Of a DNA stretch of 64,000 bases, positions 12,901 to 57,954 are shown piece after piece (the first letter of the stretch is position 1; each line of letters begins with the position of its first letter). Source of the stretch: Gammaproteobacteria bacterium (lineage in GTDB: Bacteria; Pseudomonadota; Gammaproteobacteria; Tenderiales; Tenderiaceae); contig JACQEP010000010.1 in NCBI GenBank assembly GCA_016200485.1, positions 351,644-415,643 of the forward strand, given 5' to 3'. The position numbers and the translations under genes are program-made. A model generated the notes under the pieces. The model did not search any database and was not told the origin of the DNA. It worked only from the letters and a program-made list of their open reading frames with translations.

Positions 12901-14385
12901 TCAAGACGAACAACTAACTTCAATGCGTTGCGCCCATTCCGGCGGCGCGGCGGCATACTTTTCCCGTTCGGGCTGTTCGGCATACGGGGCGCGCAACAAA
13001 TCGAGCAAAGTTTCTATTTCACTGTAATCATGCTTATCGGCAGCGGCGCGTATCGCCTGCTCGGCCAGATAATTGCGCAAAATATATTTTGGATTAGCCT
13101 GCTTCATTCGCTGGCACCGTTCCTGATCGTTGCTTTGCTCCGCCTGCAACCGCTGCCGGTAGCGTTCCGCCCAAGCATCAAATGCGGCGCGATCAAGCAC
13201 CCGATCACGCAACGGCGTATTCGCCGCACCCGTCGTCGAATCAAAATCACAAAGCATGCGCAGGAAAATTGTGTAGTCTGCCTGTTGCTGCAACAAATTC
13301 AATAAATCATGCCACAACAATTCATCACCCGGTTGCTGCTCCCGCAAACCGAGTTTACGCCGGGCAATCACATGATAAGCATCCAGAAATCTCTGCTGAT
13401 ATTCACCCAACAAGGCACGTGCTTGCTCTGCCGCCTGCTCAGGTTCAACAGCCAACAATGGCAACAATGCCTGCGCCAGACACGTCAGATTAAACAGCCC
13501 TATCTCCGGTTGCCGATCAAAGGCATAACGACCGTGATGATCGGAGTGATTACAAATGAACCCGGCGTCAAAGGTATCAATAAACCCAAACGGGCCATAA
13601 TCCAGCGTCAGCCCCAGCAATGACATGTTATCGCTATTCATCACACCATGGGCAAAGCCCACGCCCTGCCACTGCGCAATTAATCGGGCGGTGCGGCTGA
13701 TCACGTCATCGAGCAATGCCAGATAACGATCCTCACGCCCGGTCAACTCCGGCCAGTGGGTCGTAATCGCATAATCGGCCAACGTCTTGAGATGGTGATG
13801 CTGGTTGGTGTAATAAAAATACTCGAAATGGCCGAAACGGATGTGACTCGGCGCCATGCGCAACACCATGGCGCCAGCTTCAACCGTTTCACGATATACC
13901 GGCTCGTCACTGCCAATCAGACATAAGGCGCGCGTGGTGGGAATTCCCAGACTATGCATCGCCTCACTGCACAAATATTCACGAATACTGGAACGCAATA
14001 CCGCCCGTCCATCGGCCCCGCGTGAATAAAGCGTTGGGCCGCTGCCTTTCAAGTGTAAATCCCAGGATTGCCCCTTGGAGTTTTTTAGTTGCCCCAGCAA
14101 AATTGCACGACCATCGCCTAGTCGTGGCACATAGACACCAAACTGATGCCCCGAATAACACATCGCCAGTGGTTCCATGCCAGGATGTCGTTTAGTGCCC
14201 AGCAAATATTCCAGGAATTCAGGCCGTGACGCCTGATCCGGCGCCAATTCGATTAATTCGGCCAGCGCCGGATTGAAGCTAATCAAATGCGCGTTATGCA
14301 GCGGGATGGGAGTGACACGATTGAAAAACTCATCCGGCAGGCGCGCATAGGTATTGTGAAACTGCAATTCTTCAAGCGACTTCAT
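12901..14385 (-). CDS. selO: protein adenylyltransferase SelO (YdiU)
   Basis: 494 residues of the SelO pseudokinase family, which transfers AMP from ATP to Ser/Thr/Tyr of target proteins and protects against oxidative stress. All residues known to matter are at the expected numbers: Lys113 (L-H-L-K-G-S-G-P-T), Glu136 (R-S-S-I-R-E-Y-L), Arg176 (V-L-R-M-A-P), Arg183 (H-I-R-F-G-H-F-E), Asn253 (N-S-D-N-M-S) and Asp262 (L-D-Y-G-P). The C-terminus is V-S-C-S-S, with the Cys at the position of selenocysteine in eukaryotic SelO. A very divergent relative lies at 55077-56933. Divergent from mnmC with 96 bases between. Confidence 0.96.
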   Translation of the reverse strand: MKSLEELQFHNTYARLPDEFFNRVTPIPLHNAHLISFNPALAELIELAPDQASRPEFLEYLLGTKRHPGMEPLAMCYSGHQFGVYVPRLGDGRAILLGQLKNSKGQSWDLHLKGSGPTLYSRGADGRAVLRSSIREYLCSEAMHSLGIPTTRALCLIGSDEPVYRETVEAGAMVLRMAPSHIRFGHFEYFYYTNQHHHLKTLADYAITTHWPELTGREDRYLALLDDVISRTARLIAQWQGVGFAHGVMNSDNMSLLGLTLDYGPFGFIDTFDAGFICNHSDHHGRYAFDRQPEIGLFNLTCLAQALLPLLAVEPEQAAEQARALLGEYQQRFLDAYHVIARRKLGLREQQPGDELLWHDLLNLLQQQADYTIFLRMLCDFDSTTGAANTPLRDRVLDRAAFDAWAERYRQRLQAEQSNDQERCQRMKQANPKYILRNYLAEQAIRAAADKHDYSEIETLLDLLRAPYAEQPEREKYAAAPPEWAQRIEVSCSS

Positions 14386-51227: not shown

Positions 51228-52499
51228 TTAGAAATCCTTACCCTTCAGCTTGCAATACCGCAAATACCAACCTGACGTTTTCTTCCTGAACTGCATGGGT
51301 GTCGTGCCGGGAAACATTGTTATCCGTCGAACTCGCATCCGATCATCTACCATAGCCACCGGCCCGGAAACAGTCCCCACGCCAAAGGCATAACCGGTCT
51401 CTCTGACCGAGATCACGTTTCGTGGACCATATTCACCATAAGGATAGGCAAAAGAGACCACCTCCGCCCCTAATAACTTCTCCAATACCTGTCTCGATTC
51501 GCGAATCTCATAATCTGCGAGGACGTCACTCAATTCGGAAAGGCGAGCGTGCGTCATTCCATGAGAGGCAATCTCGACTAAGCCACTATGATGGCATGCG
51601 AGAACCTCAGCATCATTCATCAGTGGCGCCTCCGGCTCACCATCGGCCATATCCCAATAGTTATTGCGAATACCACGATCCCCGAGCACATAAATCACTG
51701 CGCGGGCGCCATAACGCTCAAGCAATGGCAGCAGGTTTTCGAAATTGTCTTTGTACCCATCATCAAATGTCAGAATGACTGGTTTTTTCGGGTGAGCGCC
51801 ATGGACAATATCCTTGAATGTCACAAACTCAAATCCACGCCGCTTCAGGCTGATAATTTGCGCCTCAAGCTCATCGACAGTGACATAAATATTATGCCTG
51901 GACCCCGCGGGCGGCAGCTTCAGCACTCGGTGATAAGTAAGAACAGGAATTTCTCTAAAGCGAGCCAAATAATCATCGATAATCGCTTCTCGATAAACTG
52001 CAATCACTTGTGGATATACCCGGTCAATTGCATAATCACTCAGGTAGTCACGATAGTGTTCCAGTGGAACGCTCAACTGGCCATTAAGCATTTTTTCTAA
52101 ATCCCGCAACAGCTCTGCACCAGTCCATGTGTGTAGCAAATCACAATCACCAAAGTTGGTCGCTTTCGCGATAGCGATGGTCTGTTCATTAACGGGACCG
52201 ATATAGCGGTTCTCACCGACAGCAATCACCGGATAGCCAGCACGCATCGCCTCTACAGCAACCCGACCAGCACCGATGATGACATCATTCTCGCGGAAGA
52301 CCTTATTTACATCCGGCACAAACCCCAGCATTTTGACATTACCACCCGGATGCAACTGCGGCGAGGTCTCCACAGGACCGCCCACAATCGTGAATTCGAC
52401 GTCCGGCATCTGCGGCGCCACTTCATTCACAATCCTGGTGGCGATTTCCCCCTTCGGCCCCGTAAGCCGACCAATCCATGCAACCCTACTCAAAGCCAT
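51228..52499 (-). CDS. GT4 C-terminal half fused to polysaccharide deacetylase
   Basis: 423 residues in two parts. Residues 1-175 are the nucleotide-sugar half of a family-4 glycosyltransferase (V-A-W-I-G-R-L-T-G-P-K-G, A-V-E-A-M-R-A-G-Y-P-V-I-A-V-G). Residues about 185-423 are a NodB-type deacetylase: V-L-T-Y-H-R-V, T-F-D-D-G (244-248) and H-G-M-T-H (313-317). The missing N-terminal half of the transferase is the next upstream frame, overlapping by 14 bases. Either a natural two-subunit arrangement or a gene split by a frameshift. It may build and then deacetylate an amino-sugar chain. Confidence 0.82.
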   Translation of the reverse strand: MALSRVAWIGRLTGPKGEIATRIVNEVAPQMPDVEFTIVGGPVETSPQLHPGGNVKMLGFVPDVNKVFRENDVIIGAGRVAVEAMRAGYPVIAVGENRYIGPVNEQTIAIAKATNFGDCDLLHTWTGAELLRDLEKMLNGQLSVPLEHYRDYLSDYAIDRVYPQVIAVYREAIIDDYLARFREIPVLTYHRVLKLPPAGSRHNIYVTVDELEAQIISLKRRGFEFVTFKDIVHGAHPKKPVILTFDDGYKDNFENLLPLLERYGARAVIYVLGDRGIRNNYWDMADGEPEAPLMNDAEVLACHHSGLVEIASHGMTHARLSELSDVLADYEIRESRQVLEKLLGAEVVSFAYPYGEYGPRNVISVRETGYAFGVGTVSGPVAMVDDRMRVRRITMFPGTTPMQFRKKTSGWYLRYCKLKGKDF

Positions 52500-52956
52500 T
52501 ACGGATTACTCTGATATCGGCATCAGTGATATTGAGTTCCTGCCGCAAATGATCGGCAAGATGTTCACAGACGACGATGATATGACGGCCATAGATATTC
52601 GTTTTACGCTTTGCCGCATGCCGACTTTGCCGCCCATGCACGGTGGACACATACCCCACGCCCGCAATTTTGGCGACGATATTCGCCAACCAGCTTGCCG
52701 CCCGTGAATGCGCATGAATCAGATCAATGTTTCGACTGCGGCAGAGTTTGACCAGGCAAACGATATTACGCAGCCGATTGAGTAACGAACGATTGTGTAT
52801 CGACATCGGAATATATTCCGCCTCAGCCTGCACGGTCAGTGTATCGGAGACGATGTAATTGTGATGTCCGTCGGCGACGAGTTTACGACATAGCGTTGCC
52901 ACATAGACCTCGGGGCCGGTCAGATGTGTTTGCGACATGAGGTGTAAAATATTCAT
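52486..52956 (-). CDS. GT4 N-terminal half, separate frame
   Basis: 156 residues: M-N-I-L-H-L-M-S-Q-T, G-P-E-V-Y-V-A-T-L-C-R, D-L-I-H-A-H-S-R-A-A-S-W and V-I-R-N-G-F-E, the acceptor half of a GT-B glycosyltransferase, ending abruptly with TAG exactly where the linker to the second half is expected. The following frame begins at an ATG overlapping its last codons. Alone it cannot be a working transferase; together with the next protein it may be. Confidence 0.78.
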   Translation of the reverse strand: MNILHLMSQTHLTGPEVYVATLCRKLVADGHHNYIVSDTLTVQAEAEYIPMSIHNRSLLNRLRNIVCLVKLCRSRNIDLIHAHSRAASWLANIVAKIAGVGYVSTVHGRQSRHAAKRKTNIYGRHIIVVCEHLADHLRQELNITDADIRVIRNGFE

Positions 52957-54030: not shown

Positions 54031-55074
54031 ATGTGCACCGATCTCAAAAAAATCCTTGTCATCCGCAACGACAAACTGGGTGATTTCATGCTCAGTTGGC
54101 CAGCCTTGGCACTACTGCGCCAGGCTTTGCCTCATTGCGAAATTCACGTCCTGGTGAACAGCTATACTGCCGATATGGCGCGGCTGTGCCCATCAATCAA
54201 TCAGACAATCATTGATCCCGGCCCGCAGGCTCCCTGGCTCACCCAGTGGGCTCTGGCACGATCTCTTCGCGACGAAGGCTATGATGCCGCCGTAACCCTG
54301 TTTTCTACTACTCGCATCGGGGCAATCCTGGCGCTGGCAGGTATCCCTTACCGCCTGGCCCCTGCCACCAAAATCGCGCAGATATTCTATCATGTGCGAC
54401 TGACCCAACGGCGCTCACGCTCGGAAAAACCCGAATTCGCATACAACCAGGACCTGGCGCTACGCTTACTTGGCGATTTTGGCATCACCTCCGGGTCGCC
54501 ACCTACCCCGCCCTATTTACGCTTTGCGGAAGAAGAGCTGACACAGTTGCGAAATGATTTTTGCCTTAAGCATAGATTGGATTCAGACAAACTGCTGGTC
54601 TTTATCCATCCAGGCAGTGGCGGTTCGGCCAACAACCTGAGCCTTGAACAATATGCTCAGCTGGCACAAACCTTACACTCCTCGCAGGGACATCAGATCA
54701 TTATCAGCACTGGTCCCAGTGAACTCGCGCCGGCTCAACAACTCGCCGCCAAGATTGGCGATATGGCCGCTTCAATTTACCACTCCACTGCCGGGCTCGA
54801 ACAATTCGCGCGCCACATTGCGATTGCCGATTTGTTTATTAGTGGCTCCACGGGCCCCTTGCATATCGCGGGGGCACTTGACCGGCCAACAGCTGCGTTT
54901 TATCCCCGGCGCCGCTCGGCTACTGCACTACGCTGGCAAACCACCAACAGAGAATCGCGACGATTAACTTTCTCACCACCTGAATCGGCGGCGAAAGAAG
55001 ATATGAGCAGCATTGACATCAAGGCTGCCGCACATGAGATTAGCAATAAGTTACTGAGCGTCGGCCAACCATAA
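54031..55074 (+). CDS. family-9 glycosyltransferase
   Basis: 347 residues. K-I-L-V-I-R-N-D-K-L-G-D-F-M-L-S-W-P and L-F-I-S-G-S-T-G-P-L-H-I-A-G-A-L are the GT9 signatures; G-S-G-G-S-A-N-N-L-S replaces the more usual G-S-x-x-K. It may be a heptosyltransferase of the outer core. Convergent with the SelO-like gene, two bases apart. Confidence 0.9.
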   Translation: MCTDLKKILVIRNDKLGDFMLSWPALALLRQALPHCEIHVLVNSYTADMARLCPSINQTIIDPGPQAPWLTQWALARSLRDEGYDAAVTLFSTTRIGAILALAGIPYRLAPATKIAQIFYHVRLTQRRSRSEKPEFAYNQDLALRLLGDFGITSGSPPTPPYLRFAEEELTQLRNDFCLKHRLDSDKLLVFIHPGSGGSANNLSLEQYAQLAQTLHSSQGHQIIISTGPSELAPAQQLAAKIGDMAASIYHSTAGLEQFARHIAIADLFISGSTGPLHIAGALDRPTAAFYPRRRSATALRWQTTNRESRRLTFSPPESAAKEDMSSIDIKAAAHEISNKLLSVGQP

Positions 55075-55076
55075 AT

Positions 55077-56933
55077 TCAGAGTCCCTCTCTACAATCTCT
55101 GACAATAGCCAGAAGCTCATTCAATACATCCTTGGCATTTCGATTACTAAACTTTTCGCTCGAATCAAGGTAACGTCTTTTATTTTCAGGCCGCAGAACC
55201 TGCAACTCCACAAATTCAGAGAACACCTTATGCCTGGTCTTTGGCGCCATACTATCGCTCCCCTTCGCCAACGCTTCAGAGGCATAAATGATGGAATCGC
55301 CTGTTATCCGCTCATAGCGATTAATTAAACTGGATCGCTTCACTATCTCACGCAGCATGCTTTTTTCTGACACTCCATCACACTCGGCTGCACGCGCGAC
55401 AAGAGCCTTGTATAACCTCTGAAAACGCCTTATTTTCTCATTGCGACTGATTGTCGGCTTCAAATCATCTTTTGTCGCATAATTTGATTTCAAAATATCA
55501 ACAAACATCTGACAACTCATATCTTTATTATTTGACAGATAATAAGCAGGCAACTCTCTCAATATATCGCGCACACAAAATACCGCATCCCAAGTCACCC
55601 CGTCTTTAATGTTATACAACCCCTTTGACGATTTAACCTTTTCAAAATATGAATACACCTCAACAAACTCCATAAGAATATTATTTATCTCTTTGTCTTT
55701 CTGGATTTTTGAAACCACATTCATGTTGAACCCAATCCTGTACAGGATCAATTCATGCTTTTTACTTAGATAAGTCTCTTCAAATAATTTTAGCGCCTCA
55801 TGATCTTTATAATGCTTAATATTCTCTTTTTTCCCCGATATAAGATACTCGGTAATCTGTGCAAAATTCTGCACGATGTATTTTGCCTTGTTTTTCTGCT
55901 CGGTAATAGTTGTAGACATCCTATCAACATCGTCATAACGATATTCATGGTGATATAAACCAAACTGCCGTACTGAGCCATAATCTATGATGCCACCATC
56001 CGTTAGAATGTTATCTCCGTCCCAATCCATCCAGCAGAATATATATTCCACTTCAAAACAGGCAGCCGCTTCCGCAAAGGAAATAGCGAATTTTTTAAGA
56101 ATATCCTGATATTTTCTTTTGTCACCAGAAAGCCTCTCGCACTCACCGTTAGCGATCTGTCTCTCTATAAAATAATCCATCATCCCCTTTAACCGAGGAT
56201 AATCATCTTGCTTCAAGTAGCGGAAAAAGTGGGCTGGCCGCAATAGGTTTTTACCCGCCCTGACATTGATCGATGTATCGTCAGCGAAGGAAATCACCGC
56301 CAGCGTCCGTTCTGTAGATATCCCGTTTTTGTGCATAATCTCGCTCATCATGGCCGCACAAAGACCATCGATAAAATCCGAACGGCCTGAACCATAGGAG
56401 ACATTGGGGTCGCCTGTTTTAACCAGTTTGTTTCCCAACACTACCGCAGGACTAAGACAAGTCGTCCCTGTCCCGCAACTTGTCACGTCCCAGATGCCAT
56501 CCTTACTTTCAAAACAACCATTCCAAATACTACGCCCATCACCAGACGTGTATCCCTTGGTGCTTGGATGTTGTAGTTGTAAATAGCGCGTCGCCATGTA
56601 TTTATAGGGACGGATATCCTTTTCGGCAATCGGTGTTTTATGAGCGATGTCATACTCATTTATGATCTGCAGCGAAAAAGTGTAGAGAATTGCTTCTTTC
56701 AGTTCTTTATTGAGCTCATGAGGATGCGATTTGGTAATTAATCCCATTTCCTTGGCCAAATCGAAATTGAAATAAAACACCTCGCCGCCGGGCCTGGTAT
56801 ACGCTGCATAATCAACATACCCATCCGGCACTGCATCTCGATAGGGGTGACGCCCGTCGATTTTCAAAAAGCGGGAGTACACACCAAAATCCTTCGCATT
56901 ACCGGTAGCCATAATATTAAGCCCACCCAACAA
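55077..56933 (-). CDS. divergent SelO-like protein, catalytic Lys lost
   Basis: 618 residues, clearly AT-richer than its neighbours. By eye the order of SelO elements is kept: E-V-F-Y-F-N-F-D-L-A-K-E-M-G-L (51-65), S-G-D-G-R-S (130-135), W-D-V-T-S-C-G-T-G-T-T (148-158), S-G-R-S-D (182-186), S-E-I-M-H-K-N-G-I (197-205), R225 and R232 (V-R-A-G-K-N-L-L-R-P-A-H-F), D-G-D-N-I-L (305-310) and I-I-D-Y-G-S (315-320). The canonical SelO Lys113 falls at Cys153 and Glu136 at Ala193, while the Asn/Asp metal ligands (N308, D317) and both arginines stay. A helical C-terminal half of about 280 residues has no SelO counterpart I can align. It may be an adenylyl- or phosphotransferase-like protein, or a pseudoenzyme, acting in surface glycan biology. 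I know no named family. Confidence 0.65.
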   Translation of the reverse strand: MLGGLNIMATGNAKDFGVYSRFLKIDGRHPYRDAVPDGYVDYAAYTRPGGEVFYFNFDLAKEMGLITKSHPHELNKELKEAILYTFSLQIINEYDIAHKTPIAEKDIRPYKYMATRYLQLQHPSTKGYTSGDGRSIWNGCFESKDGIWDVTSCGTGTTCLSPAVVLGNKLVKTGDPNVSYGSGRSDFIDGLCAAMMSEIMHKNGISTERTLAVISFADDTSINVRAGKNLLRPAHFFRYLKQDDYPRLKGMMDYFIERQIANGECERLSGDKRKYQDILKKFAISFAEAAACFEVEYIFCWMDWDGDNILTDGGIIDYGSVRQFGLYHHEYRYDDVDRMSTTITEQKNKAKYIVQNFAQITEYLISGKKENIKHYKDHEALKLFEETYLSKKHELILYRIGFNMNVVSKIQKDKEINNILMEFVEVYSYFEKVKSSKGLYNIKDGVTWDAVFCVRDILRELPAYYLSNNKDMSCQMFVDILKSNYATKDDLKPTISRNEKIRRFQRLYKALVARAAECDGVSEKSMLREIVKRSSLINRYERITGDSIIYASEALAKGSDSMAPKTRHKVFSEFVELQVLRPENKRRYLDSSEKFSNRNAKDVLNELLAIVRDCREGL

Positions 56934-57177
56934 CCTCAGATGTTATTTATATCGTTCATCTAAGCATTTGACTTTAATGGACAAAGACCACCCAACAAGC
57001 CTCCTCCAAACAAAAGTAGCGTATATATTTCAACCAGCGCTTAACTCGCCACCAACAGTGGAGCTAACTCATTGTATTTTATTAGCTTATTGAATGAAGA
57101 AATGGATTAACGCATCTGGCGTGGGAGATCGACAATGAGACCGGATCCGAGAACATCTCAAGAGTGGAGGATCGCAA

Positions 57178-57954
57178 TCAGGAAATGCGCGTCGCTTTAG
57201 AAGGTTGCTGCCGCGACCACAAATCAGCATATTTGACGAAGGTCGAATGCGCCGATAACAGGGCCATCAACAGCCCCTGTTTCCCGTCGAGAAAACCGAC
57301 CTTGATAAAGTACATGCGCATGAAACAACCGATTCCGTGCAACACGCCTGTCAGCAGCGAAGTGCTTTTGCCACGCTGCTGTCTTTGCGTAGCAAACTCG
57401 GCCGCATAGCGCGCCGATTTGACGAGATAGTGCTCGAGATCGCGGTACGTGAAATGCAATAAATCACCTTTCAATTGTTCAAATTTAACGTCAGCGTCAA
57501 AATACAACTTCTCATGCACCCGTTCTTCACCATAGCGCGCCTTTTTACGCGCATACAGGCGCACCTTCGGAGCAGGATACCAGCCGCCATGCCGCAAGAA
57601 GCGGCCAAAACACCAAGGCAAAATTGCCATCGAGTAGGCGACATTACGCTGATCGCCTTCTACCGCCGAGCGTATGCTGGCCTCCAATTCTGGAGTAACT
57701 CGCTCGTCAGCATCGATCATCAATATCCAATCACCAGTAGCTGCGTTCTGAGCCCGCTGCCGCTGCATGCCGTAACCCTGCCAATCGGCATTGACAATGA
57801 TCTTGTCGGTATAGCGCCGCGCAATTTCTACCGTTCCGTCGCTACTACCACCATCCAGCACAACAATTTCATCGACGAATGACAAGCTGGCGAGGCATTC
57901 GCCGAGCATCAAGGCCTCATTCTTGACGATCAACACTGCTGACAGCCGCGCCAC
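57178..57954 (-). CDS. family-2 glycosyltransferase, WaaE/KdtX-like
   Basis: 258 residues beginning at GTG directly after the waaL stop. L-S-A-V-L-I-V-K-N-E-A, D-G-G-S-S-D-G-T-V-E-I-A and I-D-A-D-E-R-V (metal site) match LPS-core beta-1,4-glucosyltransferases. C-terminal hydrophobic region L-T-G-V-L-H-G-I-G-C-F resembles a membrane-associated helix. The last gene of the hldE-hldD-waaF-waaL run. Confidence 0.9.
   Translation of the reverse strand: MARLSAVLIVKNEALMLGECLASLSFVDEIVVLDGGSSDGTVEIARRYTDKIIVNADWQGYGMQRQRAQNAATGDWILMIDADERVTPELEASIRSAVEGDQRNVAYSMAILPWCFGRFLRHGGWYPAPKVRLYARKKARYGEERVHEKLYFDADVKFEQLKGDLLHFTYRDLEHYLVKSARYAAEFATQRQQRGKSTSLLTGVLHGIGCFMRMYFIKVGFLDGKQGLLMALLSAHSTFVKYADLWSRQQPSKATRIS

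Follow-up and report, generated by a model that had tools for sequence, protein, structure and literature searches.

A Remote SelO-Like Protein Family with an Apparently Reversed Pseudokinase Signature in Gammaproteobacteria and Bdellovibrionota

1. Introduction

SelO serves as a model for kinase-fold enzymes that carry out other chemistry. In the passages of PMC8097203 that deal with its active site, Lys113 is described as contacting the gamma-phosphate of the flipped ATP and Glu136 as supporting Lys113; Arg176 and Arg183 are also gamma-phosphate ligands, while Asn253 and Asp262 are metal ligands. The same passages state that SelO has no HRD Asp and name the loss of this residue as the pseudokinase mark of SelO. 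In addition, it has been reported that the CSS tail of SelO is located at the active site and is required for NAD hydrolysis (PMC13391479). Review passages on SelO, including those of PMC8097203, describe canonical SelO alone. A search of the open-access literature for work joining SelO or YdiU with Bdellovibrio found none, and earlier notice elsewhere is possible.

Here, a divergent SelO-like gene is analyzed that lies in a 64,000-nucleotide stretch of DNA from a gammaproteobacterium of the family Tenderiaceae; this whole stretch is referred to as the window. The window also carries an ordinary SelO gene at 12901–14385, a typical member with its catalytic residues numbered as in the P. syringae enzyme.

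2. The Gene and Its Relationship to SelO

As shown in Table 1, the SelO-like gene is encoded on the minus strand. The open reading frame spans 55077–56933, and its start codon is not settled, as the starts of relatives are spread over 18 alignment columns and are too variable to fix it; ATG 56912 has been adopted. All residue numbers used here are counted from this ATG, and those of the preliminary description, counted from TTG 56933, are 7 higher.

Table 1. Coordinates of the SelO-like gene and its features in the window.
Feature	Coordinates	Strand	Basis
Divergent SelO-fold protein, 611 aa from ATG 56912	55077..56912	minus	Profile, profile–profile and fold matches
Region with SelO sequence homology, residues 44–431	55620..56783	minus	hhalign against 11 canonical SelOs, probability 98.9, E 2.4e-17
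C-terminal helical module, residues 432–611, unmatched by SelO sequences and by solved folds	55080..55619	minus	Sequence and separate model
C-terminal tail R-E-G-L-COOH, fixed	55080..55091	minus	72/72 homologues end in one column with Ile, Leu or Val
Codon of Cys146, place of SelO Lys113 (VAIK lysine)	56475..56477	minus	Cys 46/72, Arg 18/72, Lys 0/72
Codon of Ala186, place of SelO Glu136	56355..56357	minus	Ala/Thr/Ser 71/72, Asp 1/72, Glu 0/72
Arg218 to Arg225, SelO Arg176 and Arg183 (gamma-phosphate ligands of flipped ATP)	56238..56261	minus	Both Arg 72/72
Catalytic loop M-D-W-D-G-D-N, residues 295–301; Asp296 at HRD position, Asp300/Asn301 equivalent to SelO Asp252/Asn253	56010..56030	minus	D298, D300, N301 72/72
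Asp310-Tyr311-Gly312, DFG-type motif, SelO Asp262	55977..55985	minus	Asp 72/72
Segment missing at the same site in relatives, between two convergent LPS genes	55075..57177		Flanks abut in L172, L173, L174

The landmarks of SelO occur in order along this frame, as the preliminary description had claimed. The Pfam SelO profile (PF02696) matches the protein weakly but above its cut-off (26.5 bits against 22.8; E 3.4e-6). The NCBIfam YdiU subfamily model gives E 2.2e-11 at a score far under its curated cut-offs, and the canonical-SelO equivalog model gives 22.6 bits against a cut-off of 900, a value that the ordinary SelO of the window likewise does not reach (568.8). Profile–profile alignment also joins the protein to canonical SelOs (Table 1), and the SelO-like family shares 26 fixed positions with SelO, each with the identical residue.

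The AlphaFold2 model, calculated with 21 homologues as input, has a mean pLDDT of 84.7 and a pTM of 0.88. When this model was compared with the PDB by Foldseek, significant matches were obtained only to SelO/YdiU structures, which account for all nine matches under E 0.001 (E 3e-12 to 3e-10; entry 6iii, listed as uncharacterized, is YdiU by its name elsewhere), with a TM-score by target length of about 0.7; ordinary kinases trail at E 0.1 or worse. Profiles and model together indicate that the gene encodes a remote relative of SelO.

3. Distribution and Phylogeny of the Family

A first scan identified 27 loci, distributed over Gammaproteobacteria, Bdellovibrionota and a single “Nitrospirota” metagenome-assembled genome (MAG) that is possibly mis-binned. 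Among 369 genomes drawn evenly from the class of the window, 13 had true members, including the window’s own genome and one with a fragmented copy containing stops, and in a draw of 299 genomes from its phylum the window’s genome was the only one with a member. Bdellovibrionota, the phylum of locus L019, is a phylum of predatory bacteria, and here the family was found in 120 of the 241 genomes sampled. Canonical SelO is also present alongside 34 of the 40 Bdellovibrionota members checked, as well as in the genome of the window; the SelO-like gene is thus an extra paralogue and not a replacement.

In a quick tree calculated without bootstraps, the 72-member SelO-like family is split from canonical SelO by a single branch (SH-aLRT 100), and group B2 falls outside a clade (99) consisting of group B1 (Bdellovibrionota) and the gammaproteobacterial members. 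The family is read as a second, ancient branch within the SelO fold, far from canonical SelO.

Decayed, split and partial copies were also observed. A decayed SelO-like copy lies in three pieces, one of them with three internal stops, at G071:C21:40792-42275 (L042, L152), and in one Thiotrichaceae MAG the SelO-like frame is split in two (L025, 9947-11958), with a second partial copy on another contig (L026, 9971-11089).

4. Active Site and Proposed Catalytic Mechanism

Residue equivalences were taken from the profile alignment with 11 canonical SelOs, and conservation was counted over 72 non-redundant homologues. The SelO residues Lys113, Glu136, Arg176, Arg183, Asp252, Asn253 and Asp262 correspond to Cys146, Ala186, Arg218, Arg225, Asp300, Asn301 and Asp310, respectively. 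The hand alignment of the preliminary description (K113=C153, E136=A193, R176/R183=R225/R232, N253=N308 and D262=D317 in its own numbering) agrees exactly with this result. A shifted Lys/Glu pair was sought in the insertion, where K165 is the only candidate, and this residue is not conserved among the 72 homologues; a pair merely displaced in the alignment was therefore rejected. K234 is the sole Lys that at least 98% of the family retains.

The catalytic loop has the consensus W-[ML]-D-W-D-G-D-N in most members. At the HRD position, five residues before the metal-binding Asn301, 71 of the 72 sequences have Asp (Asp296 in the window) and one has Glu, where SelO has Val248; the first letter of this HRD-like motif is Trp and not His. 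Judging from the alignment, the pseudokinase signature of SelO is reversed in this family: the Lys/Glu pair is gone and the HRD-position Asp is present. The suggestion made earlier of a new subfamily with altered chemistry gains support from the family-wide loss of the pair, with no shifted Lys or Glu, and from the single separate branch.

The reading favored by a modest balance of probability is that the protein is an active, Mg- or Mn-nucleotide-dependent transferase of a separate SelO-fold branch, with altered phosphate binding and presumably transferring AMP. In this mechanism, ATP would still bind as in SelO, its gamma-phosphate buried by Arg218 and Arg225; invariant Lys234 or Arg127 would perhaps substitute for Lys113; Asp296, Asp298, Asp300, Asn301 and Asp310 would form a metal and base cluster; and AMP would be transferred to a protein or small-molecule acceptor. 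AMP transfer is favored over phosphate transfer because the two Arg ligands of the flipped ATP never vary in the family. Against the favored reading, loss of the Lys that binds the gamma-phosphate may alter the nucleotide or its orientation.

The Asp at the HRD position is also compatible with phosphoryl transfer, that is, a true kinase with ATP in the usual orientation and transfer of the gamma-phosphate, since Asp296 occupies the place of PKA Asp166, the residue whose loss is SelO’s pseudokinase mark in the passages of PMC8097203. The two invariant Arg residues that bind the gamma-phosphate of flipped ATP, and a fold that is that of SelO and not of ordinary kinases, make such a kinase unlikely. 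Kinases also usually retain the VAIK Lys, which is absent here. With Lys/Glu lost and the Asp present, the SelO-like family would provide a natural test of the residues that decide between AMP and phosphate transfer.

5. The S51 Peptidase Operon and Further Alternatives

In group B1, all 40 genomes examined have a Peptidase_S51 gene directly downstream of the SelO-like gene and on its strand, and in 31 of them the stop codon of the SelO-like gene overlaps the S51 start by 4 bp ([AG]TGA). The three partner proteins scanned exceed the PF03575 cut-off (E 4e-25 to 7e-38), and Ser122 and His165 of the S51 site, like the G-x-S-A-G nucleophile motif and the P-H motif, are kept in all 40. An S51 gene is also present at L138, a sequence of the phylum Bdellovibrionota that the tree puts, with weak support, within the mainly gammaproteobacterial clade; the pairing may accordingly predate the split between B1 and the gammaproteobacterial members. 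No linked S51 gene was found among the gammaproteobacterial or B2 members examined, nor in the genome of the window, so the peptidase is not an obligatory partner; strong as the association is, it is confined to one branch, plus the genome of L138. Three B2 genomes (G526, G440 and G453; loci L156, L158 and L159) carry a strong homologue of the partner, but not next to the SelO-like gene. Within the branch that has the operon, the strict association provides a first handle on the substrate, and under the AMP-transfer mechanism the peptidase would share a pathway with the SelO-like enzyme and may serve there as an eraser or a processing enzyme.

The operon can also be read as pointing to an amide ligase, which would join a carboxylate to an amine through an acyl-adenylate in the way that SidJ does with glutamate, with the S51 enzyme cleaving the bond or processing the product. 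This reading draws on the strictness of the pairing with a peptidase of the dipeptidase E/cyanophycinase class and on SidJ, whose kinase fold auto-AMPylates and glutamylates (PMC6858067). It is, however, fairly improbable, as an S51 gene is not linked in the gammaproteobacterial and B2 members and SidJ is not among the Foldseek matches listed. The narrower proposal of a reversible amide-modification system in Bdellovibrionota, in which a SelO-like ligase is coupled by the operon to an S51 reverser, would be a long shot.

Loss of the Lys/Glu pair used by canonical SelO might also indicate a catalytically dead pseudoenzyme acting as a nucleotide- or partner-binding scaffold, as had been considered before. 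This is distinctly improbable: none of the metal, base and phosphate-binding residues varies in the 72 sequences, although identity between their groups is only 34–51%, and there is an extra Asp at the HRD position, whereas dead enzymes tend to lose such residues. An active AMP-transferring enzyme remains the preferred reading.

6. C-Terminal Module and Tail

The preliminary description had noted a helical C-terminus of about 280 residues without a SelO match. Such a module does exist, but its length is about 180 residues, since the SelO match ends at residue 431 of 611 and no sequence match to SelO was found beyond this point. A separate model of the module (pLDDT 83.7, pTM 0.61) was itself searched against solved structures, and no known fold was matched.

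The extreme C-terminus is fixed in position (Table 1). In the gammaproteobacterial and B1 members it is mostly R-E-G-[IL], and in B2 mostly E-x-I; by a rough comparison, the S51 partner proteins end in eight different alignment columns. The canonical SelOs compared here end in CSS or CGT, and the C-x-[ST] tail of canonical SelO, associated with a redox switch and NADase activity, is absent from the SelO-like family. Because the SelO-like end is fixed and the CSS tail of SelO lies at the active site, it is a fair guess by analogy that the SelO-like tail probably reaches the cleft in the same way, with other chemistry. The fixed C-terminal end, the HRD-position Asp and the S51 operon of one branch are features that go beyond the preliminary description.

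7. Genomic Context and Origin in the Window

In the window, the SelO-like gene is surrounded by genes for heptosyltransferases, glycosyltransferases, an epimerase and an O-antigen ligase. It is flanked by a GT2 gene (57178–57954) and a heptosyltransferase gene (54031–55074), whose homologues abut within about 4 bases in three genomes that belong to the taxonomic family of the window’s genome (L172, L173 and L174). The GC content of the SelO-like gene is 42.4% compared with 52.5% for the window, with 35% at 55500–55999, so the AT-richness noted earlier is confirmed, and the transfer suggested from it is supported by both composition and the empty site. Because of this empty site, the presence of the gene in only 2 of 11 genomes of the taxonomic family and the difference in GC, the gene is most simply explained as an insertion of some 2.1 kb acquired by horizontal transfer. 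Its place in the LPS locus would be incidental, because the flanking LPS genes abut without it in three relatives.

A role in LPS assembly or phage defense in the window genome had been proposed earlier, and the position of the gene among heptosyltransferase, glycosyltransferase and O-antigen ligase genes speaks for it. Such a role is nevertheless very improbable and can be dismissed, since LPS genes are intact around the empty site in three relatives, members elsewhere have neighbors that bear no relation to LPS or vary from place to place, and the protein matches no PADLOC family, no phage, no plasmid and no viral contig and has no significant viral fold match. Carriage on plasmids, for which no match was found, was likewise set aside.

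Two further observations concern the surroundings of these genes. A small GIY-YIG nuclease gene lies convergently just downstream of the SelO-like gene, on the opposite strand, at L007, L008, L010, L013 and L025; as a general partner it was rejected, these being only a cluster of similar marine gammaproteobacterial MAG loci. In the window itself, a group-1-type glycosyltransferase on the minus strand at 51228–52956 is apparently split into two overlapping open reading frames, the first half at 52486–52956 and the second, fused with a polysaccharide deacetylase, at 51228–52499. The overlap is kept in two relatives (L172, 7247–8951; L173, 7241–8966), which points to a fixed split or frameshift and not to a sequencing error.

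8. Comparison with Known Systems

The S51 partner shares PF03575, the G-x-S-A-G motif and the P-H motif with the known S51 peptidases (dipeptidase E, Lmo0363 and cyanophycinase), but it scores under the curated cut-offs for PepE and cyanophycinase, so its substrate is not predictable. The glutamylase SidJ, a kinase fold that uses ATP for non-kinase chemistry, resembles the SelO-like family by function only, no sequence relation between the two having been found here; SidJ retains an active-site Lys (K367), with Gln486 at the position of the HRD Asp, which is the opposite pattern (PMC6858067). Compared with canonical protein kinases, the family lacks the VAIK Lys and the alpha-C Glu and has an Asp at the HRD position in 71 of 72 sequences.

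The closest system is the SelO/YdiU protein adenylyltransferase (PF02696; PDB 6EAC, 6LNA and 6K20). Unlike it, the SelO-like family is without Lys113 and Glu136, has Asp in place of Val248, a W-x-D-W-D-G-D-N catalytic loop and no C-x-[ST] tail, and the protein exceeds it in length by about 120 residues and carries a C-terminal module without a match. In common with SelO/YdiU are the fold, the G-D-G-R loop, the equivalents of Arg176/Arg183, Asp252, Asn253 and Asp262, and a C-terminal end at a fixed position.
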